NCBI GenBank assembly: GCA_036567785.1
Contig: DATCTV010000004.1
Span: forward strand, 62,001-126,000
DNA length: 64,000 bases
Direction: 5' to 3'
Source: Desulfomonilia bacterium
GTDB lineage: Bacteria; Desulfobacterota; Desulfomonilia; UBA1062
Under the pieces are notes generated by a model, which made no database searches, was not told the DNA's origin, and saw only the letters and a list, made by a program, of their open reading frames with translations. Below are positions 18,481 to 38,270 of the stretch, one piece after another. Both the position numbers and the translations under genes were made by a program. The first letter of the stretch is position 1. Each line of letters opens with the position of its first letter.

Positions 18481-20031
18481 TTATTCGACCAGTTTGATTA
18501 ACAGCTTCTTTCCGAATATCTTGGAAAATGCATCCCTGTGGTTCTGAGCACCCCATGTCTCCAGGTCACAACCTCTGTCGCATTCAAGTTCCAGAATGAC
18601 CGTGTTCTTATCACCCATCCTGAATTTTGCATGGGCAATAAGTCCAGCATGGCTTCTGTCCAGGCTCTCGGCAATCCGCAGCAGAATCGAATGCACCCTG
18701 ATCGTTTCGATAGAGCGTGTATCAAGACCGGCCGTTTCGCCGCCTTTTCTTCCAGGAGAACCTCGTCTGTGAAAAAAGACAGAGGCCGCCATTATGGCTA
18801 TCTCCTTCTGGTTGAACCCCAGAAGGTCTGCATTCCTTATGAAATAGCTGCTGTTGGCGTGGTGGTTGCTGTATGAAAGGAACGCCCCTATATCATGGAG
18901 CAGGGCAGAGTATTGAAGCAGTTCCCTCCTGCCGCTGCCCTGCCTGTGAAGCCATATATTCCTTCCCGTATCAAACATTTCAAGGCAAAGGCGCGCCACA
19001 GTCTCTGCATGATTTTCATCAAAACCGCATTTTCTGCCAAGGCTTAATACGCTCCTCATCCTTATCGATACCTCTTGAGACTCCTCTCCGTATTCCCTGT
19101 CAAGATAGTCGATAAGGAGCCCGTCCCTTAATTCACGCGAGCTGATTCTGAGCTCGTTTATCCCTGCCTGGGACATGATTGTTTCAAGGATTGCCGCACC
19201 GGCTACTATTATATCCGCCCTTTTCGGATTCATTCCCGGAACGTTCCGCCTTTCCTTGAGAGGCAGAGAACACAGAAGCTTCGATATCTGCTTCAGGTCT
19301 TTGAGCTTGAGCAGCGATTTCCTGCTTTCATCACCCTTATGGATCACCTGCCTTGCTATCTCGGCAAGACTTTGTGCAGTGCCCGAACTACCGTATGCAT
19401 CCTTTATCCTGAATGACCTTATTGTCTGGACAGGCCTGATACTGGCGTTTTTTACATGTTCACAAATCATTTCATATCTTTTGGGGGTGACGGGGGCATG
19501 GACATCTTCGATAAATTTCATCGAAAGCCTTATGACACCGAGCCTCATGCTGTCGAGATAACTGTACTCCCTTCCGTCACCGATAATAATTTCCGTGCTC
19601 CCGCCGCCAATGTCTATGAAGAGCGTGGGGCCGTCTATCCTGTCGGCACGAGAAACGCCCAGGTATATGAGCCTGGCCTCTTCCTTGCCCGAGACCACGT
19701 TCATCTCGATTCCGGCCTCGTTCTTCAGCAGTTCCAGAAACTCCTTCTGATTCGATGCGTCCCTTGTCGCAGAGGTTGCAACAGCTACTATCTCGTCCGC
19801 ACCAAAGGTTTTTGCCATGCCAACGAAATTTCTGCATACTGCAACCGCCCTTTCCATCGCCTCCGGTTTAATCCGGTTGTCGTCGAACTCTCCTTCTCCG
19901 AGCCTTATCATCTCTTTCTGACGGGAAAGCTCGGTATGAGACCTGCCGCCGTCAAAGCGCGCCAGCATTATGCGCACGGAATTCGTACCCATGTCTATGA
20001 ACGCGACTGTTTTTGGTTTTTTTTTCTTCAC
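18481..20031 (-). CDS. ppx: Exopolyphosphatase (Ppx/GppA family) with HD domain
   Basis: A 516-residue enzyme that releases phosphate from the ends of polyphosphate, or hydrolyses pppGpp. AFIDMGTNSVRIMLA is the first ASKHA phosphate loop, AVATSATRDASNQ and FIDIGGGSTEIIIG the second; YGSSGTAQSLAEI follows. The C-terminal third carries an HD domain (LLHDIGAFLSYSNHH, ILLRIAESLDRSH). The start is GTG and overlaps the stop of the upstream metallophosphoesterase-HD gene (GTGA), so translation is coupled. It closes the operon ppk1 - CHAD - phosphoesterase/HD - ppx, which favours polyphosphate as the substrate over pppGpp. Confidence 0.92.
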   Translation of the reverse strand: MKKKKPKTVAFIDMGTNSVRIMLARFDGGRSHTELSRQKEMIRLGEGEFDDNRIKPEAMERAVAVCRNFVGMAKTFGADEIVAVATSATRDASNQKEFLELLKNEAGIEMNVVSGKEEARLIYLGVSRADRIDGPTLFIDIGGGSTEIIIGDGREYSYLDSMRLGVIRLSMKFIEDVHAPVTPKRYEMICEHVKNASIRPVQTIRSFRIKDAYGSSGTAQSLAEIARQVIHKGDESRKSLLKLKDLKQISKLLCSLPLKERRNVPGMNPKRADIIVAGAAILETIMSQAGINELRISSRELRDGLLIDYLDREYGEESQEVSIRMRSVLSLGRKCGFDENHAETVARLCLEMFDTGRNIWLHRQGSGRRELLQYSALLHDIGAFLSYSNHHANSSYFIRNADLLGFNQKEIAIMAASVFFHRRGSPGRKGGETAGLDTRSIETIRVHSILLRIAESLDRSHAGLIAHAKFRMGDKNTVILELECDRGCDLETWGAQNHRDAFSKIFGKKLLIKLVE

Positions 20032-21347
20032 CTGATCTCAATTTCTCTATCGAAAACCTTTTTCATAAGGTCCGACTTGATAAGTCCATATTTCATTTCG
20101 GTTTCCGACGGACGGAAAGTCCTCAATATAAAAGTAATCTTATCCACGGATATTTCGCATGAAAGTTTTGTTACGGCATTTGAATGCGTCCTGTCGAGTC
20201 CGTCCGCCACCCTCAGTATGGCGGAAAGCATGCTTACCTTTCTCCTGTCGTTTTCATTCAGTAATGAAAAAAATTCATGCCCTGAGTCGGGCAGAGCCTT
20301 TCTGTGATATCTTGCTATAAGCGCTGTAATAAGCTTTTCGTTCTCAGTGAAACCGGGCAGGCTGCCTTTGAGTATCATGTCCATCGAAAGTTTGTGGTGC
20401 GCGTTTCCTCCTTCCGAGATGCCTATGTCATGCAGAATAGATGCGCACTTCAATATCGTTCTGTCCTGTGACGATAGACCGTGCAGTTCTTCAAGCCCGT
20501 CAAATATCATGAGCGCCAGGTTTGCAACCTTTTTTGAATGCGCCTCTTCATAACAATGGGAAGCCGCAAGCCTTTCAGCCTGGTTCTCCATTTCATTTTC
20601 CCTTGATTCCTCTTCTTTCCTTACGGCTGTGTAATTCTTCGCTTCCAGGATCATTCTGGAGAATACATCTGGAAGGTCTTTTTTTATAACAGCGGCGGCA
20701 GCCGCCTGAACATCGTAATCCACCCTGTAATGATGCACCCTGACATCTTTCTTGGAGTTTATTTCAAGAATGGCGAACGAGGCCCTGGTGTCTCCGTCAT
20801 CTGGCAGGCCAACAGTACCGGGGTTTATGAAAACCGCCTTGCCTGCCTTTCTTACGAAAGACCTGTGTGAATGCCCGCAGATTATGATGTCGAAACCGGT
20901 CTTGAGCGATATCTCGTTAAGCCTTTCAACCGGTGTTTCGGGCCCCAGGTGCTCCCTGTCCGACTCAGGGCTTGCATGAACCAGCAGAATTTTCCTTCCT
21001 CCGACTGTTATTTTTCTTCTAAGGGGCAGGTTTTTAACATATTTTCTGTTTGCCGGACAAAGACTTTCATATGAATATTTAAGCATGAGAAACTTGTCAG
21101 GATCCTTCTCATGCTTCCATAGCGCCGCCTTTTTAGGAAATTTCATGATCCTTTCATCGAAGTTTCCGGCAACGCCCAGCACTTTCTTCTTTCTGAGCAT
21201 ATTCACGACCTCATCCGGAAAAGCACCGAAACCCAGCATGTCGCCGAGATCCCACAACGATTCAGCGCCGTGTCTTTTTGCATGCAGCAGAACCTCTTTC
21301 AGCGCATGCAGGTTTGAATGAATGTCGCTGATAAGCGCTATTTTCAC
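20028..21347 (-). CDS. Metallophosphoesterase fused to a Ppx-like HD domain
   Basis: A 439-residue two-domain protein. Residues 1-220 form a YfcE/MJ0936-type calcineurin-like phosphoesterase: LISDIHSN, LGDMLGFG, GNFDE, VHASPESD and GHSHRSF hold the two-metal ligands. Residues 240-439 form an HD domain (ILHDIGISEGGNAHHKLS, SMLSAILRVADGLDRTH) that closely mirrors the C-terminal domain of the ppx product encoded next to it. GTG start directly abuts the CHAD stop (TAAGTG). I infer a phosphatase or phosphodiesterase acting on polyphosphate, a nucleotide signal or both. The usual family lacks the HD part, so this is a fusion worth checking. Confidence 0.85.
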   Translation of the reverse strand: MKIALISDIHSNLHALKEVLLHAKRHGAESLWDLGDMLGFGAFPDEVVNMLRKKKVLGVAGNFDERIMKFPKKAALWKHEKDPDKFLMLKYSYESLCPANRKYVKNLPLRRKITVGGRKILLVHASPESDREHLGPETPVERLNEISLKTGFDIIICGHSHRSFVRKAGKAVFINPGTVGLPDDGDTRASFAILEINSKKDVRVHHYRVDYDVQAAAAAVIKKDLPDVFSRMILEAKNYTAVRKEEESRENEMENQAERLAASHCYEEAHSKKVANLALMIFDGLEELHGLSSQDRTILKCASILHDIGISEGGNAHHKLSMDMILKGSLPGFTENEKLITALIARYHRKALPDSGHEFFSLLNENDRRKVSMLSAILRVADGLDRTHSNAVTKLSCEISVDKITFILRTFRPSETEMKYGLIKSDLMKKVFDREIEIR

Positions 21348-22349
21348 TTAAGCCTGCTCTTCGTTCGGAATTTTTTCAGCATCATAATCCGAATTCAGAA
21401 AGTCGGAGAGCGTCTGCCATACACCAAGCGATTCCTCCCATACCCTCAGAAATTCATCATAACGTTTCGCCCTGAATTCGGACCTGTCTTTTTCGAGAAG
21501 CATGATGCCGGTTCTGAGCCTCGGGATTATGCGGACATTTCCGCTGTAAACAACAGCCTTTTCAGCCTCGTCCTCAAGAAAAACCGGCAGGAAGTGCGCC
21601 CATACATCACAGTCATGTATATCGCCCAGTATTTCCTGGATCGCTTTCGCCGCCTTGATCGGTTTTCTCAGTCTTGTCCTGAAAAGCGGCTCGAAACTTT
21701 CCATCGCATATCTCAGGTGCTTGGCCGCTATCCTCATCTGATGCAGTTCCGCACTTCTCGCCGGATCCCTGATATACATCTCAAAACCGAAAAGCTCGCC
21801 CAGCAGGTTCTTTATTTCACGCGAAGCAAGCATGAACGCATAACTACCCGGTTTTTCCGGCTTGTCGAAGGCCATCGAGCCAAGCACCGTGCGGAAAAGT
21901 TCCTGCATTTCAGTCAGTATCCGGCCATCTTCCAGGCGGGTGACAGCCTTGACAACGGCTGTCTGAATCCCTGCCCTCTTCTGTGTAAGTCTAAGCAGCA
22001 GCCTTCTGATGCCCTCTTTCTGTCTCCTCGTTTCAAGGGATTCCATGAATTCAGTAAGATATATTATCTGCACATCGCAGTCGCGCGCCTCACCAAGGGC
22101 CCTTGTAAGCGACCGCACCCTTTTTCTGAACAGCATGGCCTTTGACTCGGGAAGGCATTCAGCAAAAAGTTTCAGGCGGGTCCTTAGCCTGCGTGATGCA
22201 ACCCTCATCCTGTGGAGAAATTCAGGGTCTTGTGCAATCTTGACGCCTTCCGCCTCCCGCATTACAGCCTGAAGCTGCGCCGCCAGCGATTCCACGCTGA
22301 ATTTTACAAACGCCCTGTCAGGAGTGACCCCATCAGCTATTTGTTCCAT
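21348..22349 (-). CDS. CHAD domain protein
   Basis: A 333-residue, highly basic helical protein. The CHAD domain is a bundle with conserved histidines and is known to bind polyphosphate. Two signature helices are visible: FLHRMRVASRRLRTRLK (near residue 45) and ELHQMRIAAKHLRYAMES (near residue 205), the two halves of the internal repeat. The start at 22349 follows GGGGAT and overlaps the ppk1 end by 13 bases; a longer frame from 22373 is possible. Placement between ppk1 and the phosphoesterase/HD-ppx genes supports polyphosphate binding, perhaps to target enzymes to granules. Confidence 0.85.
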   Translation of the reverse strand: MEQIADGVTPDRAFVKFSVESLAAQLQAVMREAEGVKIAQDPEFLHRMRVASRRLRTRLKLFAECLPESKAMLFRKRVRSLTRALGEARDCDVQIIYLTEFMESLETRRQKEGIRRLLLRLTQKRAGIQTAVVKAVTRLEDGRILTEMQELFRTVLGSMAFDKPEKPGSYAFMLASREIKNLLGELFGFEMYIRDPARSAELHQMRIAAKHLRYAMESFEPLFRTRLRKPIKAAKAIQEILGDIHDCDVWAHFLPVFLEDEAEKAVVYSGNVRIIPRLRTGIMLLEKDRSEFRAKRYDEFLRVWEESLGVWQTLSDFLNSDYDAEKIPNEEQA

Positions 22350-24514
22350 GATCCCCTGTTCTCCAGCAGCCATTGCTGTGAATTCATTTCATCCTGGCCT
22401 TCAGTATGAACCACCCTGGAATATGAGCCGTCGGACATGAGCAGCCATGATTTTACATTGTCATTAAGATGTACCTTGAGAATTTTATTCAAGATCGTGT
22501 TTTTGATCTTTTCATCGAGTATCGGGAACAGGACTTCGATTCGTCTGTCAAGGTTTCTCGGCATCATGTCAGCGCTTCCAAGAAACATCTCGTCTTTGCC
22601 CCCGTTTCTGAAATAAAAAATTCTGGCATGTTCAAGAAAACGCCCTACCACGGATGTGACCCTTATGTTTTCGCTTATGCCGGGGATGCCAGGCCTGAGG
22701 CAGCATATGCCTCTTACCTGCAGGTCTACCCTGACCCCTGCCTCTGATGCCCTGTAAAGCGCCTGTATGATCTTTTTATCGACAAGAGAGTTCATCTTGA
22801 ACGCCAGATAGCCGTCGGATTTTTTCATGTGCCTTTCTATCTCACGCTCGATCCTGAGCAGCACCTCTTTCCTCATGCGCCCGGGCGCCACGAGCAGGCT
22901 CTTGAAATCACTCTTGGCAGAATATCCCGTAAGAGAATTGAACAGGTCGGTTACATCCTCGCCAATGACCGGATTGCATGTGAAAAGCCCGATGTCGGTA
23001 TAAATGCGGCTTGTTATCGTGTTGTAGTTGCCGGTGCTCATATGGACATATCTCACAATCCCGTTTTTCTCGCGACGCACCACGAGGCAGAGCTTTGCGT
23101 GCACCTTCATTCCGATGAGGCCGTAGACCACGTGCACGCCCTCTTTTTCAAGTGCACGCGCCCAGTGTATGTTCGTTTCCTCGTCGAACCTCGCTTTCAA
23201 CTCGACCAGTGCTGCAACCTGCTTGCCTTCCATCCTGGCATCCATCAGGGCGTCATAGATCGGCGAATTGACGCCTGTCCTGTAAAGCGTAAGCTTGATC
23301 GCCAGCACGTTGGGATCCTTTGACGCCTGTCTTATGAAATCGACGACGGGATTGAAGCTTTCATACGGATGGTAGAGTATGATGTCCCTGCTCTTTATCC
23401 TGCTGAAGATGTCGCCGTTTCCTGAAAATATCTTCGGAACAGACGGAATGTAGCCTGCATCCTTCAGATCCGGCCTGTTTATTTTCGTCAGCTGCATAAG
23501 GTCGGCCGTACCCATCAGCGATTTCGTGACATAGACCAGATAGGGCTCGACCTTCAGGTTCTTCATGAGGATGTCCCTGATGCGCGCGGGCATGGTCTCG
23601 TTAACTTCAAGTTTGACCGCAATCCCGAAATGCCTCATGTCAAGCCCTTCCTCGACCGTCGTCAGGAGATCGGATGCCTCGTCGTCCTCTATTTCTATAT
23701 CGGCGTCCCTTGTAATTCTGAAAGGATATGAGGCATCCACCCTCAATCCGGGAAAAAGCATGTCCAGATTTGCCGCTACAACCTCTTCCAGAGGGACAAG
23801 GCAATATCTACCCTGCTTTGCCAGAGGCTCGAACTCCTGCGAGCCTTCCTTTTTATCGGGAATTGTTATGAACCTCGGAAATATGTCCGGCATCTTGAGC
23901 CATGCGAATCTGTCGCCTTTTTTCGAATCGTTTACTATTACCGCGAGATTGAGGCTCAGGCTTGAAATGTGCGGGAACGGATGTGAAGGGTCAAAGGCCA
24001 GCGGCGTCAGAACTGGGTAAATCTCCTTCTTGAAATATTCCCTCAGATAGTCTTTTTCTTCCTTTTTCAGAGACTGGTAGGAAAGCACGCTGATGCCGGC
24101 ATCTTTCAGTCTGGGTTTGAGGTCTTCCTCCCAGCATATGTCCCTTTTTTCGAGCAAAGGCTGCAGCATCTTCCTGATTTCCTGAAGCTGTTCGCCAGGG
24201 AGCATGCCGTCTATCGAGCGTTCCTGCGAGTTTGACGAAAGCTGATCCCTCAGGCCTGAAACCCGAATCATGAAAAACTCGTCCAGGTTGCTTCCGAAAA
24301 TGGAGAGGAACTTGACTCGTTCGAGAAGCGGCTGAGTCTGGTCAAGGGCCTCTTCAAGCACCCTGGAATTGAACATGAGCCAGCTCAGTTCACGGTTGAT
24401 GTAAAGTCCGGGATCATTGAAAGTATCGGCGCCTGCCTTGATGGGAACCTTTTTCAAGGCTTTGACAGGCGCAGCACGCTTTTTAACCGCCTTGGTTTTT
24501 TTTTCTTTCTTCAT
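22337..24514 (-). CDS. ppk1: Polyphosphate kinase 1
   Basis: A 725-residue enzyme that polymerises the ATP gamma-phosphate into polyphosphate. LYINRELSWLMFNSRVLEEA is the classic N-domain; KLTLYRTGVNSPI precedes the catalytic core; VHAKLCLVVRR holds the autophosphorylated histidine, and LEHARIFYFRNGGKDEMFLGSADMMPRNLDRRIE the second histidine and the phosphate-binding arginine. About 35 lysine/alanine-rich residues precede the normal start, a basic tail that could bind nucleic acid or polyphosphate. It is the first gene of the polyphosphate operon; the ribosome site is weak. Confidence 0.95.
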   Translation of the reverse strand: MKKEKKTKAVKKRAAPVKALKKVPIKAGADTFNDPGLYINRELSWLMFNSRVLEEALDQTQPLLERVKFLSIFGSNLDEFFMIRVSGLRDQLSSNSQERSIDGMLPGEQLQEIRKMLQPLLEKRDICWEEDLKPRLKDAGISVLSYQSLKKEEKDYLREYFKKEIYPVLTPLAFDPSHPFPHISSLSLNLAVIVNDSKKGDRFAWLKMPDIFPRFITIPDKKEGSQEFEPLAKQGRYCLVPLEEVVAANLDMLFPGLRVDASYPFRITRDADIEIEDDEASDLLTTVEEGLDMRHFGIAVKLEVNETMPARIRDILMKNLKVEPYLVYVTKSLMGTADLMQLTKINRPDLKDAGYIPSVPKIFSGNGDIFSRIKSRDIILYHPYESFNPVVDFIRQASKDPNVLAIKLTLYRTGVNSPIYDALMDARMEGKQVAALVELKARFDEETNIHWARALEKEGVHVVYGLIGMKVHAKLCLVVRREKNGIVRYVHMSTGNYNTITSRIYTDIGLFTCNPVIGEDVTDLFNSLTGYSAKSDFKSLLVAPGRMRKEVLLRIEREIERHMKKSDGYLAFKMNSLVDKKIIQALYRASEAGVRVDLQVRGICCLRPGIPGISENIRVTSVVGRFLEHARIFYFRNGGKDEMFLGSADMMPRNLDRRIEVLFPILDEKIKNTILNKILKVHLNDNVKSWLLMSDGSYSRVVHTEGQDEMNSQQWLLENRGSWNK

Positions 24515-24587: not shown

Positions 24588-25904
24588 TCAGGATTCAGGC
24601 CTTTTACCTGTGATTAAAAAGACCGTGAATTCCCTTTCTCCTTTTCCGGCGACTTCTCTTTTTACCGTACAGGCCGTTTCGGAATTGATCTCTGTCAGCA
24701 TGTTTTCAGCAAACAGATTCTGCATATGCTTGCGGTCAAAACCGTTGTGCATTACACCTGTCTTATCCCGATGAAATTCCCCGTCATCAGGGTCAAGGTC
24801 AGCTATCGCAATATGGCCGCCGGGACGGAGCATCATACACATTTTTGAAAAAAGTCCTGATATGTCTGCAATATGGTGAAAGACCATTGATGATATGATG
24901 AGGTCAAACCTGAGATCGGGTACAGGAACATTCTCAAGGTCAAGCAGCATTGTCTTTACATTTTCAATGCCGCCAGCCACGATTTTTTCAGCTAATTTCT
25001 CAAGCATTGCGGGGGCGCTGTCGGCAGCCGTAATGCTTCCGACATGAGGCTGAATGGCAAGGCTTACAAGACCGGTGCCTGCCCCGTAATCCAGAACGTC
25101 CGTCTCCTTTGAAAGAAGTATCCGGGTTATAATGGCATCGGCTATGGATCTGGTCATTGCAATCCTCTGGGGGCTGTCATCCCAGGTTGCGGCTTCCGTA
25201 TTGAAATCTCTAGCTTTATTCATTTCCATCGCATCTTGTGTTATTTCAGCCAGCCACAAAGGATGTCTGTGACGTGCATAATCGAGTCTGACCCTGCCAG
25301 TAAATATGCCGCGGACCATGGGACGGTTAGGTTTGATTATTATAGCGGCCATATGGGCAAGAAAGGCAAGGAAGAACAGCACGAAGAACACGTTGTGAAG
25401 AGTTGTCGCCCACCAGACTGTCTTGAGCGGCATGTCAGGAATATACACGTTTTTAAGCACCTTTATCAGGCCTGTTACAATAAGGCCTGCGATTATGAGC
25501 GCCATGCCGACATAGGCAAGCCTCTGCTCGGGAAGATACTTGTGAAACGGGGGCTCCTCTCCCTTGCCGAAAAAGGTTTTTATAACATCTACTGACTGTT
25601 TGAAATCTCCTTTCCTGGGCAGCATTCCGTTTTCCTTAAGCATACCATGATAGACGATATGGAAAAGTGCAGCAGCGACAAAGACCACGGATGCTATGTA
25701 ATGAATCTTGAGAGTGAACATGAAATCCGCCGAGAATTCCATTCCCGGAATTTTCGAAATGCCGTATCTTTTGGAAAGCGGCATCTGGAAGAGCCCGGAA
25801 AGAAACAGTACAAAACCGGAAACCGCAATGGCCCAATGCTCGAAAAGCTCTATAACGCTATGCCTTACAACAAGGTTCTTATCCTGAATTATATGAGAGT
25901 TCAT
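24588..25904 (-). CDS. Cytochrome b (FdnI-like) fused to a class I methyltransferase
   Basis: A 438-residue fusion in one uninterrupted frame. Residues about 1-220 form a four-helix membrane cytochrome b of the formate-dehydrogenase gamma type: FEHWAIAVSGFVLFLSGLF, LKIHYIASVVFVAAALFHIVYH, YVGMALIIAGLIVTGLI and LHNVFFVLFFLAFLAHMAAII, each with histidines for heme. From about residue 225 (MNKARDFNTEAATWDD) a SAM-dependent methyltransferase follows: VLDYGAGTGLVSLAI is the SAM loop, FDLIISSMVFHHI and LRPGGHIAIADLDPDDG complete it. The ATG at 25904 comes one base after the stop of the Fe-S gene, so the two are coupled. No catalytic molybdoenzyme subunit is nearby. The methyltransferase would face the cytoplasm; its target, perhaps a quinone or a protein, is unknown. 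Confidence 0.85.
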   Translation of the reverse strand: MNSHIIQDKNLVVRHSVIELFEHWAIAVSGFVLFLSGLFQMPLSKRYGISKIPGMEFSADFMFTLKIHYIASVVFVAAALFHIVYHGMLKENGMLPRKGDFKQSVDVIKTFFGKGEEPPFHKYLPEQRLAYVGMALIIAGLIVTGLIKVLKNVYIPDMPLKTVWWATTLHNVFFVLFFLAFLAHMAAIIIKPNRPMVRGIFTGRVRLDYARHRHPLWLAEITQDAMEMNKARDFNTEAATWDDSPQRIAMTRSIADAIITRILLSKETDVLDYGAGTGLVSLAIQPHVGSITAADSAPAMLEKLAEKIVAGGIENVKTMLLDLENVPVPDLRFDLIISSMVFHHIADISGLFSKMCMMLRPGGHIAIADLDPDDGEFHRDKTGVMHNGFDRKHMQNLFAENMLTEINSETACTVKREVAGKGEREFTVFLITGKRPES

Positions 25905-25905: not shown

Positions 25906-26886
25906 CTATTTATCCTCATCTTTGTTTCTGTTTTTAAGCGCAACCGCTCCTAATACGACACCTGCCGCAATCCCTACTGCAGGTGATGCAATGACCGCTT
26001 TTGCCGTTCCTTCGGATTTTTTCATGTTTGATTTCACTTCACCCATATGAGGCCTGCCGTCTGATTTCTTTATCGCACTGTTTATCTTCTCGAAGGGCAC
26101 AGGACTTACATAAACGGTCGATGTCCCGCCGTTTTCCTTCATGCCGTAGATATAGCCTTTCATTCCGGCCGCCCTTTTCTCAGCCTCGGCATAGATTTCT
26201 TCCTTCTTCCCGAATATGACCGCATTTTTCGGACAGGCCTCGACACAGGCGGGTTTTTCGCCTGCAGAGATCCTTTCTTCACACATGTCGCACTTGAACA
26301 TGACGCCGTTTCCCATGAGCTCGGGTGCCACATCGAGATAAAGCCCCACGCCCGACTGCCTTTGCGGTATGCCCCAGGGGCAGACCGTCTTGCACTTGGC
26401 GCCTCCGAAGCAGAGGCTGCTGTCGATGACGACCGCTCCGGTTTTGCTCTTGTGATTTGCGGAAAACGGACATATGAGAGCGCAGGCAGGCTTGTCGCAG
26501 TGCATGCAGCGTCTGGGGATGTTCATTGTCTTTTCCCCGCCGTCAACATTGAGCCTGACCTTCTGAATGAAAATCGGATTATAGGGTGTCAGCCTGTCGG
26601 TAACATCTTTCTTCTTCGACCAGTCCTCGACGATTTTTGTTGGATAAGGAACCGGAATCGGGTCAACAGGTTCCGGAACTTTGGCAACATTTATTGCCCT
26701 GCATGCACTTACGCATGCCGGAGTGTCCTTTCCCGGACACCCGTCGCAAAGGCTGAGGTCTATGAGTGTTGCGTGACCCTGTTCCTGAGAGGCCTCTGTT
26801 TTTGACGGAACTGCTAATCCCGACGCAGCTGCAAGACCTGTAAGCGTTTTCAGGAAAGACCTTCTTGATATACCCATTTTCTGCAT
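25906..26886 (-). CDS. Tat-exported HybA/FdnH-like [4Fe-4S] electron-transfer protein
   Basis: A 326-residue electron carrier. Start chosen at 26886, where AAAGGAG stands five bases upstream; this gives MQKMGISRRSFLKTLTG, a twin-arginine signal. Four cysteine groups follow: CDGCPGKDTPACVSAC, CMHCDKPACALIC, CFGGAKCKTVC and CDMCEERISAGEKPACVEAC, as in four-cluster HybA/FdnH-type subunits. A hydrophobic tail (ASPAVGIAAGVVLGAVAL) near the C-terminus anchors it to the membrane. It would pass electrons between a periplasmic partner and the heme b subunit encoded just downstream. The catalytic subunit must lie elsewhere or be absent. Confidence 0.88.
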   Translation of the reverse strand: MQKMGISRRSFLKTLTGLAAASGLAVPSKTEASQEQGHATLIDLSLCDGCPGKDTPACVSACRAINVAKVPEPVDPIPVPYPTKIVEDWSKKKDVTDRLTPYNPIFIQKVRLNVDGGEKTMNIPRRCMHCDKPACALICPFSANHKSKTGAVVIDSSLCFGGAKCKTVCPWGIPQRQSGVGLYLDVAPELMGNGVMFKCDMCEERISAGEKPACVEACPKNAVIFGKKEEIYAEAEKRAAGMKGYIYGMKENGGTSTVYVSPVPFEKINSAIKKSDGRPHMGEVKSNMKKSEGTAKAVIASPAVGIAAGVVLGAVALKNRNKDEDK

Positions 26887-27012
26887 ATCGTCTCCTTTGA
26901 TATTCAATGCCGTAATCAATAAATCTCTCATATCATCAGGATTCGATAAGCTCATTGATATACATCAAGAATATATAAGTTCTTCTTTCAACAGAATCCT
27001 GACATGATATTT

Positions 27013-27366
27013 TCAGTTATATCCAGCTGCTTCGGACGGAAGCCTGCAGCTACCATCATTGGCCAGATCTGTTCCCGCAGCTACCATGTCTGAATGCTGA
27101 GGATTTCTTCTGAAAAAAGTTACGGCGTATGAACAGCTCGGCCTGATTTTTAAATTTCTATCCTTTGCATATTCAAGAACTCTTCTCATGAGCTTCTCTG
27201 CGATTCCCCTGCCCCTGAGAGAAGGGTCGACAAAGGTGCGAAAAATGTCAATTACGTCATCACCCGCCATTTCGTATTCAGCCCTGCATTCAAGGCCGTT
27301 TATTTGACAGGAGAAACTGCCGCCTTCTTCGTCATGGACTATACCGGTTTCTTCTTTAGTATCCAT
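27013..27366 (-). CDS. Small GNAT-family acetyltransferase
   Basis: A 117-residue protein of the short NATD1/YjdJ type. The acetyl-CoA loop reads SLRGRGIAEKLMRRVLEYA, and IRPSCSYAVTFFRRNPQ is the conserved C-terminal strand of this subfamily. About 25 extra residues after it are not family-typical. The substrate is unknown. It stands between the cytochrome/Fe-S pair and the CoA-disulfide-reductase-like gene and has its own AGGGGA ribosome site. Confidence 0.78.
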   Translation of the reverse strand: MDTKEETGIVHDEEGGSFSCQINGLECRAEYEMAGDDVIDIFRTFVDPSLRGRGIAEKLMRRVLEYAKDRNLKIRPSCSYAVTFFRRNPQHSDMVAAGTDLANDGSCRLPSEAAGYN

Positions 27367-27453: not shown

Positions 27454-29148
27454 TCATTTCTCCCTTGAGTACGGCCATGCCATTATACCGCCTTCCATGA
27501 CCTTTACATTCTTATAGCCGTTTGCCTCGAGCACCAGCGCCGCCTCGTAGCCTCTCAGCGATATTTTACAATAAGTTATTATTTCCCGGTCTTTGTCTTC
27601 AGGAAGCTCACCAAGCCTCTTTCTCAATGCCCCGAGAGGAATAAGCGTCTCCCCTATGCCGAGCCTCATCTCTTCGTACTCGTCAGGTCCCCTCACATCG
27701 AGAATGAAGGGTTTCTCTCCGCTATCCAGTTTTGCCTTTACTTCGCGCGGGGTGAGTCCCTTGAGTCTGCCTTTGATTTTGTTCTGCATCAGATGAGCCG
27801 ATGCAATACCATGATCGATTGCAAGCGAGAACGGCGGGGCATAGGGCAGATCGGCATTGACCATGTCATCGACCGTGAGTCCGCCCATTATGGCCATGGC
27901 CCATTGTGCAATCTGCCTGCTAACATTGCCAGGACCAACACATTGAGCGCCGAGGATCTTCCCTGTCTTTGAATCGGCCACCAGTTTTGTGATAAGGAGA
28001 GCTCCTTTCATGAAACCCGGCTTGTCAGGACTCGCGTTTATTACCGTGATTATATTTTCATAGCCTGCTTTTGATGCACCGGCTTCGCTCAAACCGGTCG
28101 ATCCGGCAGCAAAATCGAACACCTTGCAGATGCCTGTCTGTATAGTACCCGGGAATTTTACCGTGTTGCCGAGAACGGCGTTCTCACCTGCAATCCTTCC
28201 CTCAAGATTTGCAAGATCACCATAAGGGGCAAGCACCTTTTTGCCTGTTATACGGTTTGTTGTCTCTATGCAGTCACCTGCCGCATATACATTCGGGTCT
28301 GATGTCTGCATGAACTCATTCACGGCAATACCCCCTGTTGTGCCGATTTCGATTCCTGCATCTTTTGCAAGTTTCGTATTAGGCGCAACCCCTATTGCCA
28401 CAACTGCGAGTTCGCATGGAAGCTCTATGCCGTTTGCCAGTTTCACGCCTGTCAGAACGCCGTTCTCTCCCAGAAACTCCGCTATGCCGTTTCCTGTTAT
28501 GACATTGGCCGATTTCGATCTGACATGGTTTTCAACGAGCTTTGCAAGGTCCCAGTCAAGAAAGGTGAGCAGCTGAGGCAGCATCTCTATTACAGTTATT
28601 TCGATGCCGGCGAGCTGAAGGGCCTCGCATGTCTCTATCCCTATCAGACCGCCGCCTATTACAACGGCCTTCTTAATAGACTTTTCATCTCTGATTTTCC
28701 TCAGAAAATCAGCGTCTTTCATGGACTGAAGAGTAGTTATCCCCTTCAGATTTGCACCGGGAACCGGCGGCATCTTAGGGATTGAACCCGTGGCGATTAT
28801 CAGCTTGTCGTAATCGAGGCCGGATGTCTCTCCTGTGAGCAGGCTCCTGAGTTCCAGCTTCTTATTCCGCCTGTCGATTTTTGTTACCTCGGTATTTGTC
28901 CTGGCCTCTATCGCCTTTGCATTGAGATAAAACTTGGGGTCTCTTGTAATACCAGTCGGCGTGCACAACAGCATATTCCGGTCATCGAAATAACCGCCAA
29001 CATAGTAAGGATACCCGCATGACGCCATGGAAAGGTCCGCATCTTTCTGGATGATTATCACTTCCGCATTTTCATCAATGCGCCTTGCCTTTGCGGCAGC
29101 CTTGGGGCCTGCTGCTGAACCTCCGATTACGACAATTCTCTTTTTCAT
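27454..29148 (-). CDS. CoA-disulfide/persulfide reductase with C-terminal rhodanese
   Basis: A 564-residue flavoprotein. RIVVIGGSAAGPKAAAKARR is the FAD loop, SMASCGYPYYVGG carries the single active cysteine (residue 44), and AVVIGGGLIGIETCEAL the NADH loop. ADLPYAPPFS closes the dimer domain. Residues about 465-564 form a rhodanese with active cysteine in ITYCKISLRGYEAA. This layout matches the CoADR-rhodanese group, which includes NADH-dependent persulfide reductases that turn over sulfane sulfur or polysulfide. AAGGGGAG precedes the ATG. The peroxiredoxin gene lies only 13 bases upstream, so both probably serve thiol and peroxide homeostasis. Confidence 0.88.
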   Translation of the reverse strand: MKKRIVVIGGSAAGPKAAAKARRIDENAEVIIIQKDADLSMASCGYPYYVGGYFDDRNMLLCTPTGITRDPKFYLNAKAIEARTNTEVTKIDRRNKKLELRSLLTGETSGLDYDKLIIATGSIPKMPPVPGANLKGITTLQSMKDADFLRKIRDEKSIKKAVVIGGGLIGIETCEALQLAGIEITVIEMLPQLLTFLDWDLAKLVENHVRSKSANVITGNGIAEFLGENGVLTGVKLANGIELPCELAVVAIGVAPNTKLAKDAGIEIGTTGGIAVNEFMQTSDPNVYAAGDCIETTNRITGKKVLAPYGDLANLEGRIAGENAVLGNTVKFPGTIQTGICKVFDFAAGSTGLSEAGASKAGYENIITVINASPDKPGFMKGALLITKLVADSKTGKILGAQCVGPGNVSRQIAQWAMAIMGGLTVDDMVNADLPYAPPFSLAIDHGIASAHLMQNKIKGRLKGLTPREVKAKLDSGEKPFILDVRGPDEYEEMRLGIGETLIPLGALRKRLGELPEDKDREIITYCKISLRGYEAALVLEANGYKNVKVMEGGIMAWPYSREK

Positions 29149-29161: not shown

Positions 29162-29866
29162 TTACTTTTTAAATATGGTTTTCAACACCTTATCCTTATC
29201 CAGTTTCTTGGTGCAGAAGAACCAGTCATAGCAGGTCATATCCTTCTTGTTTTCCATTCTTTCCTTTGCAACCCCGCATGATCCGGCCGTAGGTACGATG
29301 ACGTCGTCTCCTGGACGCCAGTCAGCAGGGGTGGCCACGGAAAAAGCGTCTGCGGTCTGAAGCGCCAGTACCACCCTGTAGAGCTCATCGAAATTACGTC
29401 CCAGACTCAGAGGGTAATATATGATCGTGCGGATTATACCCTTCGGATCGATTACAAAAACAGCCCTGACCGCCTTGGTGCTGCTTTCACCGGGTTGTAT
29501 CATGCCGTATTTCTTTGCAACTTCCATGGTGATGTCTTCTATGAGAGGAAACTTTACCTCGACGTTCTTCATTCCCTTGTATTCAATCTTTTCCTTGATT
29601 GTCCTGAGCCATGCGATATGGCTGTAAAGTCCGTCAACGGACAGTCCGACCAGCTTGCAGTTTGCCTTGGCGAATTGCTCTTCCATCGAGGCGAATGTCA
29701 TAAACTCAGATGTGCATACGGGTGTGAAATCGGCAGGATGACTGAAGAGAATTACCCAGCTTCCTGAATAATCAGCCGGAAAATTGATTTCTCCCTGAGT
29801 CGTTACTGCCTTGAACTCGGGCGCCTTTTCACCGATACGGGGAATAGATACCGCTGAATTTTCCAT
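29162..29866 (-). CDS. Peroxiredoxin, Prx6/archaeal type
   Basis: A 234-residue AhpC/TSA protein reducing peroxides. The peroxidatic cysteine is at residue 51 in HPADFTPVCTSEF, the form with -S-H-P-A-D-F-T-P-V-C- found in the Prx6 class. The long C-terminal arm PADWRPGDDVIVPT with CGVAKERMEN and TCYDWFFCTKK contains further cysteines, as in the archaeal thioredoxin peroxidases where a third cysteine resolves. GAGGGT-type ribosome site before the ATG. It precedes the persulfide reductase gene by 13 bases in the same operon. Confidence 0.92.
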   Translation of the reverse strand: MENSAVSIPRIGEKAPEFKAVTTQGEINFPADYSGSWVILFSHPADFTPVCTSEFMTFASMEEQFAKANCKLVGLSVDGLYSHIAWLRTIKEKIEYKGMKNVEVKFPLIEDITMEVAKKYGMIQPGESSTKAVRAVFVIDPKGIIRTIIYYPLSLGRNFDELYRVVLALQTADAFSVATPADWRPGDDVIVPTAGSCGVAKERMENKKDMTCYDWFFCTKKLDKDKVLKTIFKK

Positions 29867-29958: not shown

Positions 29959-30897
29959 TCAAGAAAATGTGAATCTCGTCCCCGACATGCTGAGGACAAA
30001 TCCAGGCAGTTCGCGCTCCATTGCCATCATGGCGGTTCTGCCTGTACAGTGGCACGGGATGATATATTCGGGTGCAATCTCTTTCAGTTCATTTATCGTG
30101 GGAGAGACAACTGCATCCATGTTCGCTCCCCCCAGATGGAAGCCGCCTATTACCGCATGAATCTTTTCGATCCCGGTTACTTTCTGCGCGTGTCTTATCG
30201 TGTTTATGATTCCTGCATGGGCACAGCCCGTGAGAATTACCAGGCCTTTGCCTTTCAGGGAAAAGACCAGTGAAGAATCATCGATGATCTCATCCTTGTG
30301 CTCGCCCGAATTGTCGGCATAAGTTGCAAGCGGCATGCCCTGCTCGAATGCGGCATGCCTGGGAATCTCGCCCAGGAACAGGGAGTATCCGCCGATCATC
30401 TCCACAGGTTTTTCCGATGTGATCACCTCAAGCCCGGCTCCGGAAAGGTTCTCCTTCTTCAATTCAGGAAATTTCAGTTTGAAGTCTTCCGTAAATTTCA
30501 GATAGCGGTTGTTGTCAAGGGCAAAGGGATGCAGAAAGATTTTAAGAGGTTTACCGATTTTTCTGATAACGTTTTCAATGCCGCCGGTATGGTCCATATG
30601 GCCGTGCGAGAGTGCGGTCTCCTCTATTTTAGAGGCATCTACCCCTAGGGCATCCATGTTATGAGTAACCCCGCTCGGAGAATAGCCGAAGTCCAAAAGG
30701 AGCGTGTGCTCATTTCCGTTATCAGTCGTTTTGACAAGAGCCGAAAATCCGTGTTCGGCGATTACGGAATTCTTTATGTAACCGTCCTTCACAGGGTTGG
30801 CCCTGGCGGCGATCGGGTTTGCCGGGGCCTCAACCAGATCTATATAGTTGTCCTGAAGAACAAGTATTTCTATCTTTTCCGATTCTTTTATCTGCAT
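29959..30897 (-). CDS. Metallo-beta-lactamase-fold hydrolase, ribofuranosyl-aminobenzene-phosphate synthase-like
   Basis: A 312-residue MBL-fold protein. ALSHGHMDHTGG is the metal site, TGCAHAGIINTIRHA and AVIGGFHLGGA supply further ligands. This C-A-H-x-G-I form belongs to the subgroup annotated as beta-ribofuranosylaminobenzene 5'-phosphate synthase (methanopterin branch), though in bacteria without methanopterin the function is open. GGGAG stands seven bases before the ATG at 30897; a longer frame from 30915 lacks a ribosome site. The thioesterase gene precedes it by 19 bases. Confidence 0.78.
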   Translation of the reverse strand: MQIKESEKIEILVLQDNYIDLVEAPANPIAARANPVKDGYIKNSVIAEHGFSALVKTTDNGNEHTLLLDFGYSPSGVTHNMDALGVDASKIEETALSHGHMDHTGGIENVIRKIGKPLKIFLHPFALDNNRYLKFTEDFKLKFPELKKENLSGAGLEVITSEKPVEMIGGYSLFLGEIPRHAAFEQGMPLATYADNSGEHKDEIIDDSSLVFSLKGKGLVILTGCAHAGIINTIRHAQKVTGIEKIHAVIGGFHLGGANMDAVVSPTINELKEIAPEYIIPCHCTGRTAMMAMERELPGFVLSMSGTRFTFS

Positions 30898-30916
30898 CTG
30901 CAATCTCCCTTTCATT

Positions 30917-31396
30917 TCATTTATTAAACGCCTCTACAACGGCATCAGGCACGCGAACCGCAACAACTTCACCCCGTGCGCACTCGACACCACCCGAAGT
31001 GAGAACAGTCGTTATTATCACCTTTTTTGGCTTTATCTCTTTCGCGCTGGACCTGAGTTCAAGGGGCATCCCCATAGGTGTCGGGCTCTTGAAATCGACA
31101 TGAAGCGCGGCAGTCAGAAATCTGATTTCCGGTTTGCTGCCTATCTCCCTGCCCTCGGCGCGTGCGGCATAGGCTGCAGCGGAACCAGTACTGTGGCAGT
31201 CAATCAGCGATGCTATGAGCCCGCCGTACACCATTCCCGGTATCGCCATGTATTTTTCATCCGGGGTATAGGTGCAGACCGTTTCGTCTCCATCCCAGAA
31301 GCTTTTAATCTGCAAGCCCTCCCTGTTCAACCTTCCGCAGCCGTAACAATGGCTGAAACTGTCCGGATAACAATCCTGAAAAGCCAATCCATTCAT
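30917..31396 (-). CDS. Hotdog-fold thioesterase (PaaI/4HBT type)
   Basis: A 159-residue protein with the hotdog pattern PGMVYGGLIASLIDCHSTGSA followed by LHVDFKSPTPMGMPLELRS and a final strand ARGEVVAVRVP. Such proteins hydrolyse acyl-CoA thioesters. An N-terminal CYGCGRLNREGLQI block with two cysteines is typical of one PaaI-like branch. GGAGG precedes the start. The substrate cannot be inferred; it shares an operon with the MBL gene. Confidence 0.85.
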   Translation of the reverse strand: MNGLAFQDCYPDSFSHCYGCGRLNREGLQIKSFWDGDETVCTYTPDEKYMAIPGMVYGGLIASLIDCHSTGSAAAYAARAEGREIGSKPEIRFLTAALHVDFKSPTPMGMPLELRSSAKEIKPKKVIITTVLTSGGVECARGEVVAVRVPDAVVEAFNK

Positions 31397-31460: not shown

Positions 31461-32732
31461 TCAGGTTGTTTCTCTTCTCAATTTAAGTATTGGCTCAATT
31501 GCTTTTTTGAATTCTCTGGCGGCAGCCGTACCTGAAAACTGGTAGACATAAGGCATACCGTCATCGCCTGACTCACCGATTCCAGCATCAATAGGTATTT
31601 TCCCCAGAAATGGAACACCCATCTGTTCAGCCATCCTCTTTCCGCCTCCGCTTTTAAAGATATCAGTGGTCTTGCCGCAGTGAGGACAGACAAAACCGCT
31701 CATATTTTCAATAACCCCCAGGACCGGGAGTTTAAGCTGACGGCAGAAGCTGATGGATCGCCTCACATCCGCCGTAGATACATCCTGCGGTGTTGTTACA
31801 ACCACAGCTCCTGCGGCGTCACCTATGAGCTGTATCAGGGAAAGCGGCTCATCGCCGGTTCCCGGTGGAAGATCTACTATGAGAAAGTCCAGTTCGCCCC
31901 ATTCAACCTCGCCCAGAAACTGCTTGATGGCGCTGTATTTCATGGGGCCCCTCCATATGACTGCATCTTCGGCGTTATCCAGGAAAAATCCTATGGACAT
32001 GACCTTGAGTCCGCCAAGTTCAACCGGGGCTATTGCGTCTCCAGTGCTTTTCACCTGAGCACCTTCGAGTTTCAGCATTTTTGGAATACTCGGCCCGTGG
32101 ATGTCGCAGTCAAGAAGGCCTACCTTCATGCCTTCAAGCATAAGGGCCGTGGCAAGATTTACAGCAACAGTGCTCTTGCCGACGCCGCCTTTTCCGGAAA
32201 GCACCAGTATCTTGTTTCTTATGCTGCACATCCTTTTGTTCAGCATCTGGCGCTGGGCAAAATCCTGGGGTGTCTCATCCGGCCTTTTGGTCTTTGCATC
32301 ACATGTTGATTTCGAACAGGTTTCACAATCGCTTTTTTTTGATTCTCCCATTTTTTCCTCTTTTATTTTTTTTATTTTGTAATCATCTATTGCCGCATGC
32401 AGTGTTGTAGCGGCAAGCTTCGCGCAATGGACATGATCTTCAGGAAGCCCTCCAAGGGCCTCAAGGATGTCCTGTTGTTCAATTTTTGAAGCAGCTTCAA
32501 TGGACTTTCCTTCTGCAAGGCTTGCCGCCATGGCACCGCTGGCAATCGAAGGCATGCATCCATCCGTTATGAAGGTGGCGCAACTTACGGCCCCATTATC
32601 GATTCTCAGCCAGAACTCCATCGTGTCCCCGCACGGGCCTGTAATACGGGAATGTGCATTTTCATCTTCCAGAGGGCCAAAATAGTTTTGAATCACAAGA
32701 CCCTCCGGTATTACAAACCCATCATCCGGCAT
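31461..32732 (-). CDS. NifU-like scaffold fused to Mrp/NBP35 P-loop ATPase
   Basis: A 423-residue fusion. Residues about 1-115 are an IscU/NifU-type scaffold with cysteines in GPCGDT, DGCMPSIASG and HVHCAKLA, the three Fe-S ligands. A short linker with CETCSKSTCDAK adds three cysteines. From residue 170 a Mrp ATPase follows: VLSGKGGVGKSTVAVNLA (deviant Walker A), LLDCDIHGPSIPK, DLPPGTGDEPLSL and the Mrp cysteine pair FVCPHCGKT. Mrp proteins carry and transfer [4Fe-4S] clusters. The fusion would build and hand on a cluster in one chain. It overlaps the upstream ferredoxin-MinD gene by 22 bases and resembles the MRP member of the Desulfovibrio ORP complex. Confidence 0.9.
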   Translation of the reverse strand: MPDDGFVIPEGLVIQNYFGPLEDENAHSRITGPCGDTMEFWLRIDNGAVSCATFITDGCMPSIASGAMAASLAEGKSIEAASKIEQQDILEALGGLPEDHVHCAKLAATTLHAAIDDYKIKKIKEEKMGESKKSDCETCSKSTCDAKTKRPDETPQDFAQRQMLNKRMCSIRNKILVLSGKGGVGKSTVAVNLATALMLEGMKVGLLDCDIHGPSIPKMLKLEGAQVKSTGDAIAPVELGGLKVMSIGFFLDNAEDAVIWRGPMKYSAIKQFLGEVEWGELDFLIVDLPPGTGDEPLSLIQLIGDAAGAVVVTTPQDVSTADVRRSISFCRQLKLPVLGVIENMSGFVCPHCGKTTDIFKSGGGKRMAEQMGVPFLGKIPIDAGIGESGDDGMPYVYQFSGTAAAREFKKAIEPILKLRRETT

Positions 32733-33589
32733 ACTTCCTCCCAGATCCTCCTTATCTGTTGAGACGCATAGCCGTCTGAAAATTGAACGACCGGCATGGC
32801 TTTAAGCTGCGCCCTTGTAACATCCATATCATACGGAATATTTCCGATAAACCTAACATCTGAATCTTTGAAGGTATCTATCATCATATCCGTGTTCCTG
32901 GAATTTATATCCCATTTGTTGATGCAGAATGCGGCTGGAATCTTGAAATGCGCCGTGAGTTCGAGAACCCTTCTGAGATCTTGCAGGCCTGAAAAGGTCG
33001 GCTCTGTTACAGCCAGCACAAGGGAAGCGCATGATATTGACGCAATCACGGGGCATCCTGTGCCGGGAGGACCGTCAACAAGCATCAGATCAAGACCTTT
33101 TTCTTCTCCGATTTTTTTCGCTTCATTTTTTACCAGAGTTACCAGTCTGCCGGAATTCCCCGCACCGGGGTACAGCCTTGCATGTACCATCGGGCCGTAT
33201 TTCGTCTCCGATACAAACCATTGCCCGCACCCGGCCTCTTCAAGAATTATCGCATCAGCAGGACATGCCAGTCTGCACAGACCGCAACCCTCGCATGAAA
33301 GAGCATCAATTAAATATCCTCTGCCGTCTCTCTTTTCCTTTACCGCATCGAATCTGCACAATCTGTAGCATTCTCCGCAGGCAGTGCATTTTTCTCCGTC
33401 AATTGTGGCTTTCCTGCCGTTTATAAAATCTTCAGACCTTATTTTCTGAGGCTTTAAAACCAGATGCAGGTCTGCTGCATCCACATCGCAATCGGCTGTC
33501 ACGGCATTCCCCGCAAGAGAGGCGAACGACGCCAGAACACTAGTTTTGCCTGTCCCCCCCTTACCGCTTATGACAACAAGTTCTTTCAT
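32711..33589 (-). CDS. MinD-superfamily ATPase with inserted ferredoxin domain
   Basis: A 292-residue protein. VVISGKGGTGKTSVLASFA is the deviant Walker A, TADCDVDAADLHLVL the switch strand; inserted at about residues 65-120 are two [4Fe-4S] motifs, CTACGECYRLC and CEGCGLCRLAC; DGPPGTGCPVIAS is Walker B-like. Such ATPases (two copies in the window) occur in the ORP complex of sulfate reducers. ATGA overlap with the upstream radical SAM gene indicates coupling. Confidence 0.9.
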   Translation of the reverse strand: MKELVVISGKGGTGKTSVLASFASLAGNAVTADCDVDAADLHLVLKPQKIRSEDFINGRKATIDGEKCTACGECYRLCRFDAVKEKRDGRGYLIDALSCEGCGLCRLACPADAIILEEAGCGQWFVSETKYGPMVHARLYPGAGNSGRLVTLVKNEAKKIGEEKGLDLMLVDGPPGTGCPVIASISCASLVLAVTEPTFSGLQDLRRVLELTAHFKIPAAFCINKWDINSRNTDMMIDTFKDSDVRFIGNIPYDMDVTRAQLKAMPVVQFSDGYASQQIRRIWEEVCRMMGL

Positions 33590-34536
33590 GCCCGATCAAC
33601 TCCGGCATATTTGTAGAAAAATCCGTTTCCGGAAATTTCTGTCGATATCAAGCCCTCTTTTATTATCGCATCGGTTATTTTAACAATTTCATTCGGATCC
33701 AGTCCTGTTGAAAGACATAAATCAGCCAGTCTCATGGGCCTTCTCCTTATAAGGTTCAGGATTTCAGCTTCGAAGTGCAGGCTGTTATCCCTACGCTTAA
33801 CAGGTTCAAGAAATGACCGACTGATTATCTCCGCATTGTCTCCGAACATGCCCAGGATATTTTCAAGACGTCTGCTGCATACCGGATGGATATTCATGCT
33901 TGCCGAAGGCCTGTCGCAGGTATTCAACTGTATCCTTCCGGGTTTTATCTTCTCGGTCTGAAGAATGATCTTCCTTATATTTTCATCGTCCGAATTGAAT
34001 TCGTTAACCAGAAAGACTTCAAGCCAGGTGTATCCTCTGAACTCTCTGCAGAAATCCTTGAGCCCTTCTGTCATTTGACTGAATTCTATTCCCCTGTGAG
34101 GACGGTTCACTCTTATGAAAGCCGCTTCATCTCCGGCATCAAGCGACGGCAGAACATAATCCGCAGCCATCAAGGACTTTCTGACTTCCTTAAGGAACAG
34201 GAGTGAACCGTTGGTAAGCACGGCAACAGGAATGCCGGTAATCTTCCTTGTTCCTTTTATCAGTTCCCCGATTCCGGAATTGAGTGTGGGCTCGCCGGAT
34301 CCTGTTATTGTAATAAAGTCAGGTTTCAGACCCGATGAAAGTTTTCTTTCAAGCTCTTTTACCATCCCGGCTATTGGAATATATTCTTTTCTTTCAACAG
34401 TCTTTATTGTTGTCGGTCCCAGCTGGCAGTAGATGCAGTCATATGTGCATGTCTTGAACGGCATTATATCAACACCAAGCGAGTAGCCGAGTCTTCTTGA
34501 AGGTACCGGACCGAATATGTGTTCATTATTTTGCAT
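33586..34536 (-). CDS. Radical SAM protein with winged-helix tail
   Basis: A 316-residue enzyme. GPVPSRRLGYSLGVDIMP followed by CTYDCIYCQLG gives the CxxxCxxC cluster motif; ITGSGEPTLN is the SAM-contacting GGEP-like strand. This is the COG0731-like group, distantly related to the wyosine-forming TYW1 enzymes but shorter. The last 70 residues (ILNLIRRRPMRLADLCLSTGL) form a winged-helix-like tail. It sits between the two ferredoxin-MinD genes with short overlaps on both sides, so it probably works with them in cofactor assembly or modification. Confidence 0.85.
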   Translation of the reverse strand: MQNNEHIFGPVPSRRLGYSLGVDIMPFKTCTYDCIYCQLGPTTIKTVERKEYIPIAGMVKELERKLSSGLKPDFITITGSGEPTLNSGIGELIKGTRKITGIPVAVLTNGSLLFLKEVRKSLMAADYVLPSLDAGDEAAFIRVNRPHRGIEFSQMTEGLKDFCREFRGYTWLEVFLVNEFNSDDENIRKIILQTEKIKPGRIQLNTCDRPSASMNIHPVCSRRLENILGMFGDNAEIISRSFLEPVKRRDNSLHFEAEILNLIRRRPMRLADLCLSTGLDPNEIVKITDAIIKEGLISTEISGNGFFYKYAGVDRA

Positions 34537-35368: not shown

Positions 35369-35376
35369 AATCCGTC

Positions 35377-35610
35377 CTATCTCCCGCAGGAATCCTTTCC
35401 GCATCGCTGTTTCGCGCCGCAACATGTCGTGCCCGTTGATTCGTATGAGCAGCTTGAGCCTTTGTTCATTATTATGCCTCCGGTCGTTGCCGGTGCCTTT
35501 ACGGCCTCGCCTCTGCACATGCCGCATTCAACCGGCGATTTATCGCTCATAGGACGAAAGACTTCAAATTTGTTACCGCATGACTTGCAGATATAATCGT
35601 ATGTCGGCAT
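35377..35610 (-). CDS. FmdB-type zinc-ribbon protein
   Basis: A 77-residue protein. MPTYDYICKSCGNKFEVF and ECGMCRGEAVKAP form the CxxC...CxxC zinc ribbon of the FmdB family; the tail is rich in cysteine and glycine (CCGAKQRCGKDSCG). Proposed roles for FmdB are regulatory or chaperone-like. GAGGAG precedes the start by seven bases. It precedes the second MinD gene by eight bases. Confidence 0.85.
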   Translation of the reverse strand: MPTYDYICKSCGNKFEVFRPMSDKSPVECGMCRGEAVKAPATTGGIIMNKGSSCSYESTGTTCCGAKQRCGKDSCGR

Positions 35611-36744: not shown

Positions 36745-36751
36745 AATCCAA

Positions 36752-37111: not shown

Positions 37112-37129
37112 ATCCGCTCCGAATATTTT

Positions 37130-37444: not shown

Positions 37445-37482
37445 TTTCCTGTCCTCCTTTGTGTAGTTATTGTCTGATGCAT

Positions 37483-38141: not shown

Positions 38142-38251
38142 GATTTTAATATTTCATATTTCATGCCAGATGGTATTTCCTGATAAATTATCTATAAAGT
38201 ATTATTAAATCAAATGGTTGGAGTAATATGAATAATCACTTAAATTAATCC

Positions 38252-38270
38252 ATGGTCGCAATATTGCACC
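38252..38270. promoter_or_regulatory. Palindrome between sigma-54 regulator and NifX-like gene
   Basis: TGGTCGCAATATTGCACCA contains the perfect ten-base palindrome GCAATATTGC with TGGT/ACCA flanks offset by one base. It lies about 110 bases before the NifX-like start, the usual distance for an enhancer-binding activator site. A second half-match (ATGGTTGCAA) follows at about 38286. It may bind the regulator encoded upstream. No good sigma-54 promoter was found in the right direction, so this is tentative. Confidence 0.4.

Follow-up and report, generated by a model that had tools for sequence, protein, structure and literature searches.

In the window, by which we mean the whole 64,000-nt stretch of DNA that was analysed, we found one open frame of 438 codons at positions 24588-25904 on the minus strand. 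It encodes a 438-aa protein in which a membrane cytochrome b runs into a complete class I SAM-dependent methyltransferase, as the first-pass annotation had read it, and Pfam matches on both halves bore this out. The frame (25904 down to 24588) begins right after the stop codon of a gene for a Tat-type Fe-S protein and has a GAGG motif 5' of its start. Reading downward from 39682, the same-strand run to which both genes belong encodes a sigma54 regulator, NifX-like, DUF5320, NifX-like and ARMT1-like proteins, a MinD/Mrp ATPase, a radical SAM protein and another MinD/Mrp ATPase, followed by a NifU_N-Mrp fusion, hotdog, metallo-beta-lactamase-fold (MBL), peroxiredoxin, CoA-disulfide reductase-rhodanese, GNAT and Fe-S proteins and, last, the cytochrome-methyltransferase. 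The features are as follows.

24588-25229, minus strand: class I SAM-dependent methyltransferase domain, residues 226-438 and the stop codon (Pfam models, homologues)
25215-25242, minus strand: junction, comprising E220 (last conserved cytochrome residue), I-T-Q-D-A and then M226 (sequence, relatives' tails)
25230-25904, minus strand: FdnI-like di-heme cytochrome b domain, residues 1-225, four helices (PF01292, invariant His, AF2, Foldseek)
25906-26955, minus strand: Tat-exported HybA/HmcB/FdnH-like Fe-S subunit (Tat motif, family scores, conserved Cys)
27013-27366, minus strand: small GNAT (Acetyltransf_CG) gene (PF14542)
27454-29148, minus strand: CoA-disulfide/persulfide reductase with C-terminal rhodanese domain (PDB relatives 6pfz, 3icr, 3nta, 8a56)
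29162-29866, minus strand: peroxiredoxin
29959-30915, minus strand: MBL protein
30917-31396, minus strand: hotdog thioesterase-like protein
31461-32732, minus strand: NifU_N-Mrp/NBP35 ATPase fusion
32711-33589, minus strand: ferredoxin-type MinD/Mrp ATPase
33586-34536, minus strand: radical SAM protein
34526-35527, minus strand: second ferredoxin-type MinD/Mrp ATPase
35857-39682, minus strand: ARMT1-like (DUF89), NifX-like, DUF5320, second NifX-like and sigma54-dependent PAS regulator genes; start of the same-strand run

Next to the fusion gene, positions 18481-24514 hold a polyphosphate kinase (by Pfam), then genes that read as CHAD, phosphoesterase-HD and Ppx/GppA-HD proteins, names given by reading.

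Each half of the protein was placed in its family by score and by conserved residues. Residues 15-202 matched Ni_hydr_CYTB (PF01292) with 64 bits against a cut-off of 30.1, and the heme-type histidines H23, H68, H82, H86, H170 and H184 were invariant in a 44-row cytochrome alignment, which together identify the N-terminal half as a di-heme cytochrome b of this family. It shares the four-helix di-heme b fold of FdnI (1kqf C; phmmer E 7.8e-7), which was also its best Foldseek match (1kqf_C, E 1.4e-5), and the FdnI-like cytochrome is present as a single copy in the source genome (97% complete, 64 contigs). Residues 256-404 matched Methyltransf_23/25/11/12/31 with up to 65 bits, and these scores above the Pfam cut-offs, along with a G-x-G-x-G SAM loop, assign the C-terminal half to the class I SAM methyltransferases. 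The fused methyltransferase keeps 25/25 residues that are invariant in a 17-row family alignment, is 36-45% identical to 16 stand-alone homologues, and begins with a native-like N-terminus (M226-E-M-N-K-A-R-D-F) that aligns with theirs. Stand-alone class I methyltransferases (L075, L021, L022) also share its H-H and D-L-D-x-D-x-G-x-F-H motifs, but they are separate genes, cytochrome fusion being found only in the window. In a tree of the 17 methyltransferases, the fused member formed a long branch without supported placement. Both halves look functional, given the open frame, the Pfam scores, the invariant heme histidines and the full set of invariant methyltransferase residues. Predicted structure supports the cytochrome fold only: in the AF2 model pLDDT was about 90 across much of the cytochrome domain, and the methyltransferase part, modelled without homologue rows, was unusable, with pLDDT mostly under 65.

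Searches of other genomes for the same fusion, which the first-pass annotation had proposed, returned none among 395 phylum genomes or among the best 80 of 197 confirmed cytochrome relatives on named genome contigs. In the phylum genomes, 41 further cytochrome places and 36 further methyltransferase places were counted by scoring the top 4 candidates per genome (fewer where a genome had fewer), and the two lay in one frame only in the window. Two other phylum genomes held both halves, on different contigs. A profile search for the methyltransferase, in which the top 7 candidates per genome were scored (fewer where a genome had fewer), gave 37 places in 36/395 genomes, with the window again the only fusion found. 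A frame of more than 400 aa in G321, considered as a second fusion, proved to be a stand-alone methyltransferase start inside an over-long open frame; a frame of more than 400 aa around the methyltransferase in G327 likewise looked like a fusion, and no ORF in the stretch examined there matched the methyltransferase query. At family and order level, the cytochrome occurred in 13/24 genomes including the source, and the stand-alone methyltransferase in two others. The best 80 of the 197 cytochrome relatives, mostly from Syntrophales-type MAGs (Syntrophaceae, Smithella, 'Deltaproteobacteria'), included none that runs into a methyltransferase, and tblastn of the same best 80 of 197 showed a same-strand methyltransferase within 6 kb in 0/80 contigs. 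No close relative of the whole fusion protein was found on named genome contigs, the methyltransferase profile matched only distant class I methyltransferases (25-32%) on viral contigs, and no paper on a cytochrome b-methyltransferase fusion or on the Fe-S/cytochrome module was found in open-licence PubMed Central; the part of PMC7382037 that was available has nothing on the module.

By comparison alone, a fusion found in one genome is indistinguishable from a one-base assembly error, since both alternative frames hit stops near the junction; a length error of one base in assembly or sequencing could thus have joined tandem cytochrome and methyltransferase genes lying a few bases apart. The uniqueness of the fusion fits this account, and the genus has a single genome among those searched. 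The details of the junction point the other way. The longest homopolymer there is three A, and by eye no Shine-Dalgarno-like run could be made out ahead of M226 or M228, whereas many operon genes have one. The motif H-P-L-W-x-x-E, ending at residue 220, contains the final residues common to all compared cytochrome relatives, and only five residues separate it from the methyltransferase start. The two coding parts meet precisely where the conserved cytochrome sequence ends and a native methyltransferase start follows, with nothing left over. Additions at this same point in other lineages, in one family in nine of nine genomes, also argue against an artefact. We consider a one-base junction error behind the fusion unlikely; the fusion is probably genuine but private to its lineage.

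The tail of the cytochrome is a variable site. After about residue 222, relatives carry short or acidic, proline-rich, low-complexity tails, and in several lineages they carry a domain. Family f9 has an HMA/CopZ-like domain, most copies with G-M-S-C-x-H-C, on the tail in each of its nine genomes; it was scored by profile in three proteins, and in the remaining six, including one clipped by a contig end, it was read from the motif. Single cases were a GNAT domain in one genome (L009:1236-2537), a MoaE domain in one contig (L123:9944-11080) and an alpha/beta hydrolase domain in another (L089:10001-11602). The long tail of L113, considered as a further domain, was low-complexity instead (by eye). 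At each of the HMA-tailed f9 loci (L035, L037, L039, L040, L042-L046), a CsoR-family gene lies upstream. By analogy with the topology of FdnI, we take the cytochrome C-terminus to be cytoplasmic; the site then fits enzymes needing SAM or acetyl-CoA, and the fused methyltransferase should face the SAM-containing side of the membrane.

The first-pass annotation had suggested a redox-linked methylation at the membrane, with for instance a quinone precursor, a thiol or a metal as its substrate; on this reading electrons of the cytochrome would control or drive the reaction. Both domains are intact, the junction is short, with residues 215-239 modelled by AF2 as a continuous helix at low confidence, and the operon is shared with thiol-redox genes, all of which would suit such coupling. 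The halves nevertheless occur apart in all other genomes found, including the two that have both, and elsewhere unrelated domains or an acidic stretch occupy the tail position, which leaves the redox link unsupported. The named substrates fared no better by family score, with no NCBIfam cut-off reached: ArsM gave 53.2 bits (cut-off 263), UbiE/MenG 39.2 (158), UbiG 36 (103) and TehB 35.2 (218). Pfam TehB did exceed its cut-off (27.4 against 20.4 bits) but scored below the general class I profiles. ArsM enzymes have conserved As-binding cysteines, and no cysteine was invariant across the 17 methyltransferase family members. Quinone, arsenite and tellurite methylation were set aside on these scores; quinone and arsenite had no specific support, and we regard a methyltransferase governed by the cytochrome's electrons as highly improbable.

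The surroundings of the two halves bear on the substrate. We examined 20 cytochrome and 20 methyltransferase places, some of them from family and class searches beyond the phylum sample. In Smithella-type contigs (G341, G168), the Fe-S/cytochrome pair, without the methyltransferase, lies amid the same Mrp, MBL and CoA-disulfide-reductase-rhodanese gene set as in the window, and in 2/20 methyltransferase surroundings (G071, G022) the stand-alone methyltransferase adjoins MBL and CoA-disulfide reductase genes. The cytochrome and the methyltransferase thus separately neighbour the same gene set elsewhere. Here and elsewhere, the operon context suggests chemistry of thiols and persulfides or of metal-sulfur compounds, which makes a thiol or metal a reasonable guess at the substrate; that part of the earlier suggestion stands, and the quinone precursor, with the UbiE cut-off unreached, has no specific support.

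Taken together, we favour as the probable explanation a lineage-specific end-to-end fusion, in which the methyltransferase replaced an acidic tail, is tethered cytoplasmically, probably works independently of the cytochrome electrons and acts on a thiol/sulfur or metal-sulfur substrate. The Tat-exported Fe-S protein would dock on the periplasmic side and the FdnI-like cytochrome b, judging from its family, would exchange electrons with quinone, giving a putative path from a periplasmic partner through the Fe-S protein and two hemes to quinone. The fusion would have put the methyltransferase, elsewhere a separate gene, in the place of the acidic low-complexity cytoplasmic tail. Held at the cytoplasmic face, it may methylate a small thiol/sulfur or metal-sulfur compound and would do so without electrons from the cytochrome, the separate distribution of cytochrome and methyltransferase suggesting that the halves are independent. 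Shared membership of the Mrp/NifX/MBL/CoA-disulfide-reductase set probably brought the two genes together; their co-location is observed, and its causal role is our inference.

The Fe-S partner (25906-26955) has its likely true start at about 26886 and ends in a hydrophobic stretch, read by eye as a membrane anchor. Its gene lies directly upstream of the cytochrome gene in 78/80 contigs (tblastn, best 80 of 197 relatives). It had been described as a Tat-exported four-cluster protein; the Tat motif was confirmed, and the cluster count needs amending, in that the family has 15 cluster cysteines, all invariant in 67/67 members (the window protein and 66 relatives), which leaves three for one of the four clusters. 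This three-Cys site reads C-F-G-G-A-K-C-x-x-x-C-P-W, and by likeness to known Fe-S subunits it suggests a [3Fe-4S] cluster. FdnH has 16 cluster cysteines. The window protein resembles FdnH (1kqf_B; phmmer E 3.2e-17) and is likewise of Tat type, but the module differs from FdnH/FdnI in its 15 cluster cysteines, its variable C-terminal additions, scores below the equivalog cut-offs and the lack of a catalytic alpha subunit in the window operon or in the relatives' operons. The best NCBIfam matches of the Fe-S protein were HybA and HmcB (138.2 and 130 bits), both below their cut-offs of 263 and 420 bits. The usual partner of HybA and HmcB is a HybB/NrfD-type subunit, whereas the partner in the module is a b-type cytochrome.

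This likeness raises the alternative that the pair supplies the beta and gamma subunits lacking from a formate dehydrogenase encoded at another locus, with the methyltransferase as a passenger. The pair is closest by sequence to FdnH/FdnI and HybA. Two of the three PF00384 genes of the source genome are Tat-type and formate dehydrogenase-like catalytic genes; both stand at contig ends, and no beta subunit is seen next to either. Apart from the pair, the genome has one Fer4_11 protein, encoded in a DsrMKJOP-like cluster, and one PF01292 cytochrome, encoded in a hydrogenase operon (cluster and operon both named by reading). With these orphan catalytic genes, and the other Fer4_11 and PF01292 proteins placed elsewhere, the pair could serve a formate dehydrogenase in trans. 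Against this, the cut-offs of TIGR01583 and TIGR01582 were not reached: TIGR01583 (formate dehydrogenase gamma) gave the window cytochrome 42.1 bits against 115.85, and matched 19/19 members of set A2 with a best E of 3.4e-19. Reading of the window operon genes agreed with the first-pass annotation that no catalytic subunit is present, so the cytochrome is not encoded with one as a formate dehydrogenase gamma subunit would be, and among 112 stretches, some overlapping, a long catalytic match turned up once, on the opposite strand, and a weak partial one once. Assembly gaps may also simply account for the absent beta genes. We judge a formate dehydrogenase role decidedly unlikely. The two Tat-type catalytic genes (L201, L203; at the ends of contigs C43 and C21) are 74% identical in DNA, and an in-frame TGA in the C43 copy likely encodes selenocysteine.

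With the fusion read as a lineage-specific event, it is by itself a one-genome curiosity, and the part worth following is the widespread, unexplained Fe-S/cytochrome module, which syntrophic and related Deltaproteobacteria-type genomes commonly carry and which falls below the cut-offs of the tested named subunit families. A CsoR-family repressor gene lies upstream of the pair in 23/69 contigs with enough sequence and at nine of nine f9 loci, PF02583 having been shown on one of these upstream genes. Among 39 CsoR-family sequences, a number that includes duplicates from two collections, 38 keep both cysteines and one lacks the first; at the position of the CsoR metal-ligand histidine, taken from the alignment to PDB chains, those with both cysteines have Y in 20, N in 9, H in 8 and R in 1. 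We take two retained cysteines without this histidine to mark the CstR type. The fingerprint resembles that of chain 7mq1, labelled csoR in the PDB table and presumably pneumococcal CstR. In the window genome no CsoR-family gene was detected, in a search run without a positive control.

The portion of PMC9405070 available describes a CstR-controlled operon of E. faecalis with two rhodaneses and a CoA persulfide reductase, and that of PMC10318464 names rhodaneses, sulfite exporters or SQR as frequent targets of repression by CstR homologues. Module relatives share with such cst-like operons, as described in that portion of PMC9405070, a CsoR-family repressor that mostly has the two cysteines and lacks the CsoR histidine, and rhodanese and CoA-disulfide reductase-rhodanese genes also occur near the module, the latter in the window operon; the Fe-S/cytochrome b pair does not appear in that portion, and the window operon has no CsoR-family gene. 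Among the best 80 of 197 cytochrome relatives, a rhodanese gene lies directly downstream of the cytochrome in 6/80 contigs and 5/80 have a CoA-disulfide reductase match in its vicinity, most of the 80 contigs having neither nearby. A reading in terms of sulfur alone is weakened by this scarcity, by the HMA domain, which points to copper, by FecCD-type transporters beside the cytochrome and by the CsoR-family result in the window genome. We infer a module function in thiol/persulfide or copper redox. A broader and speculative proposal, to which we give only a small chance, is that the pair forms a membrane redox module, not described before, that serves under thiol, persulfide or copper stress in anaerobic Deltaproteobacteria-type bacteria, with a CstR-like repressor in many lineages and a tail docking soluble effectors (CopZ-like HMA, methyltransferase, acetyltransferase, MoaE, hydrolase), in which the window protein would be a membrane-anchored S-methyltransferase feeding on the module's products. 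If the partner of the module were known, it could define a membrane route between quinones and cellular thiol/persulfide or copper chemistry in organisms that live close to energy limits.

The window operon also resembles the MrpORP/orange-protein Fe-S biogenesis genes, as far as the available part of PMC6345978 describes them, in having Mrp/NBP35 ATPases, NifX-like and DUF5320 genes, and differs from them in adding the NifU_N-Mrp fusion, thiol-redox genes and the membrane pair. In about ten other contigs (L129, L130, L132, L139, L146, L158 and others), a FecCD-type ABC transporter gene, often with a TonB receptor gene, lies directly 3' of the cytochrome gene.
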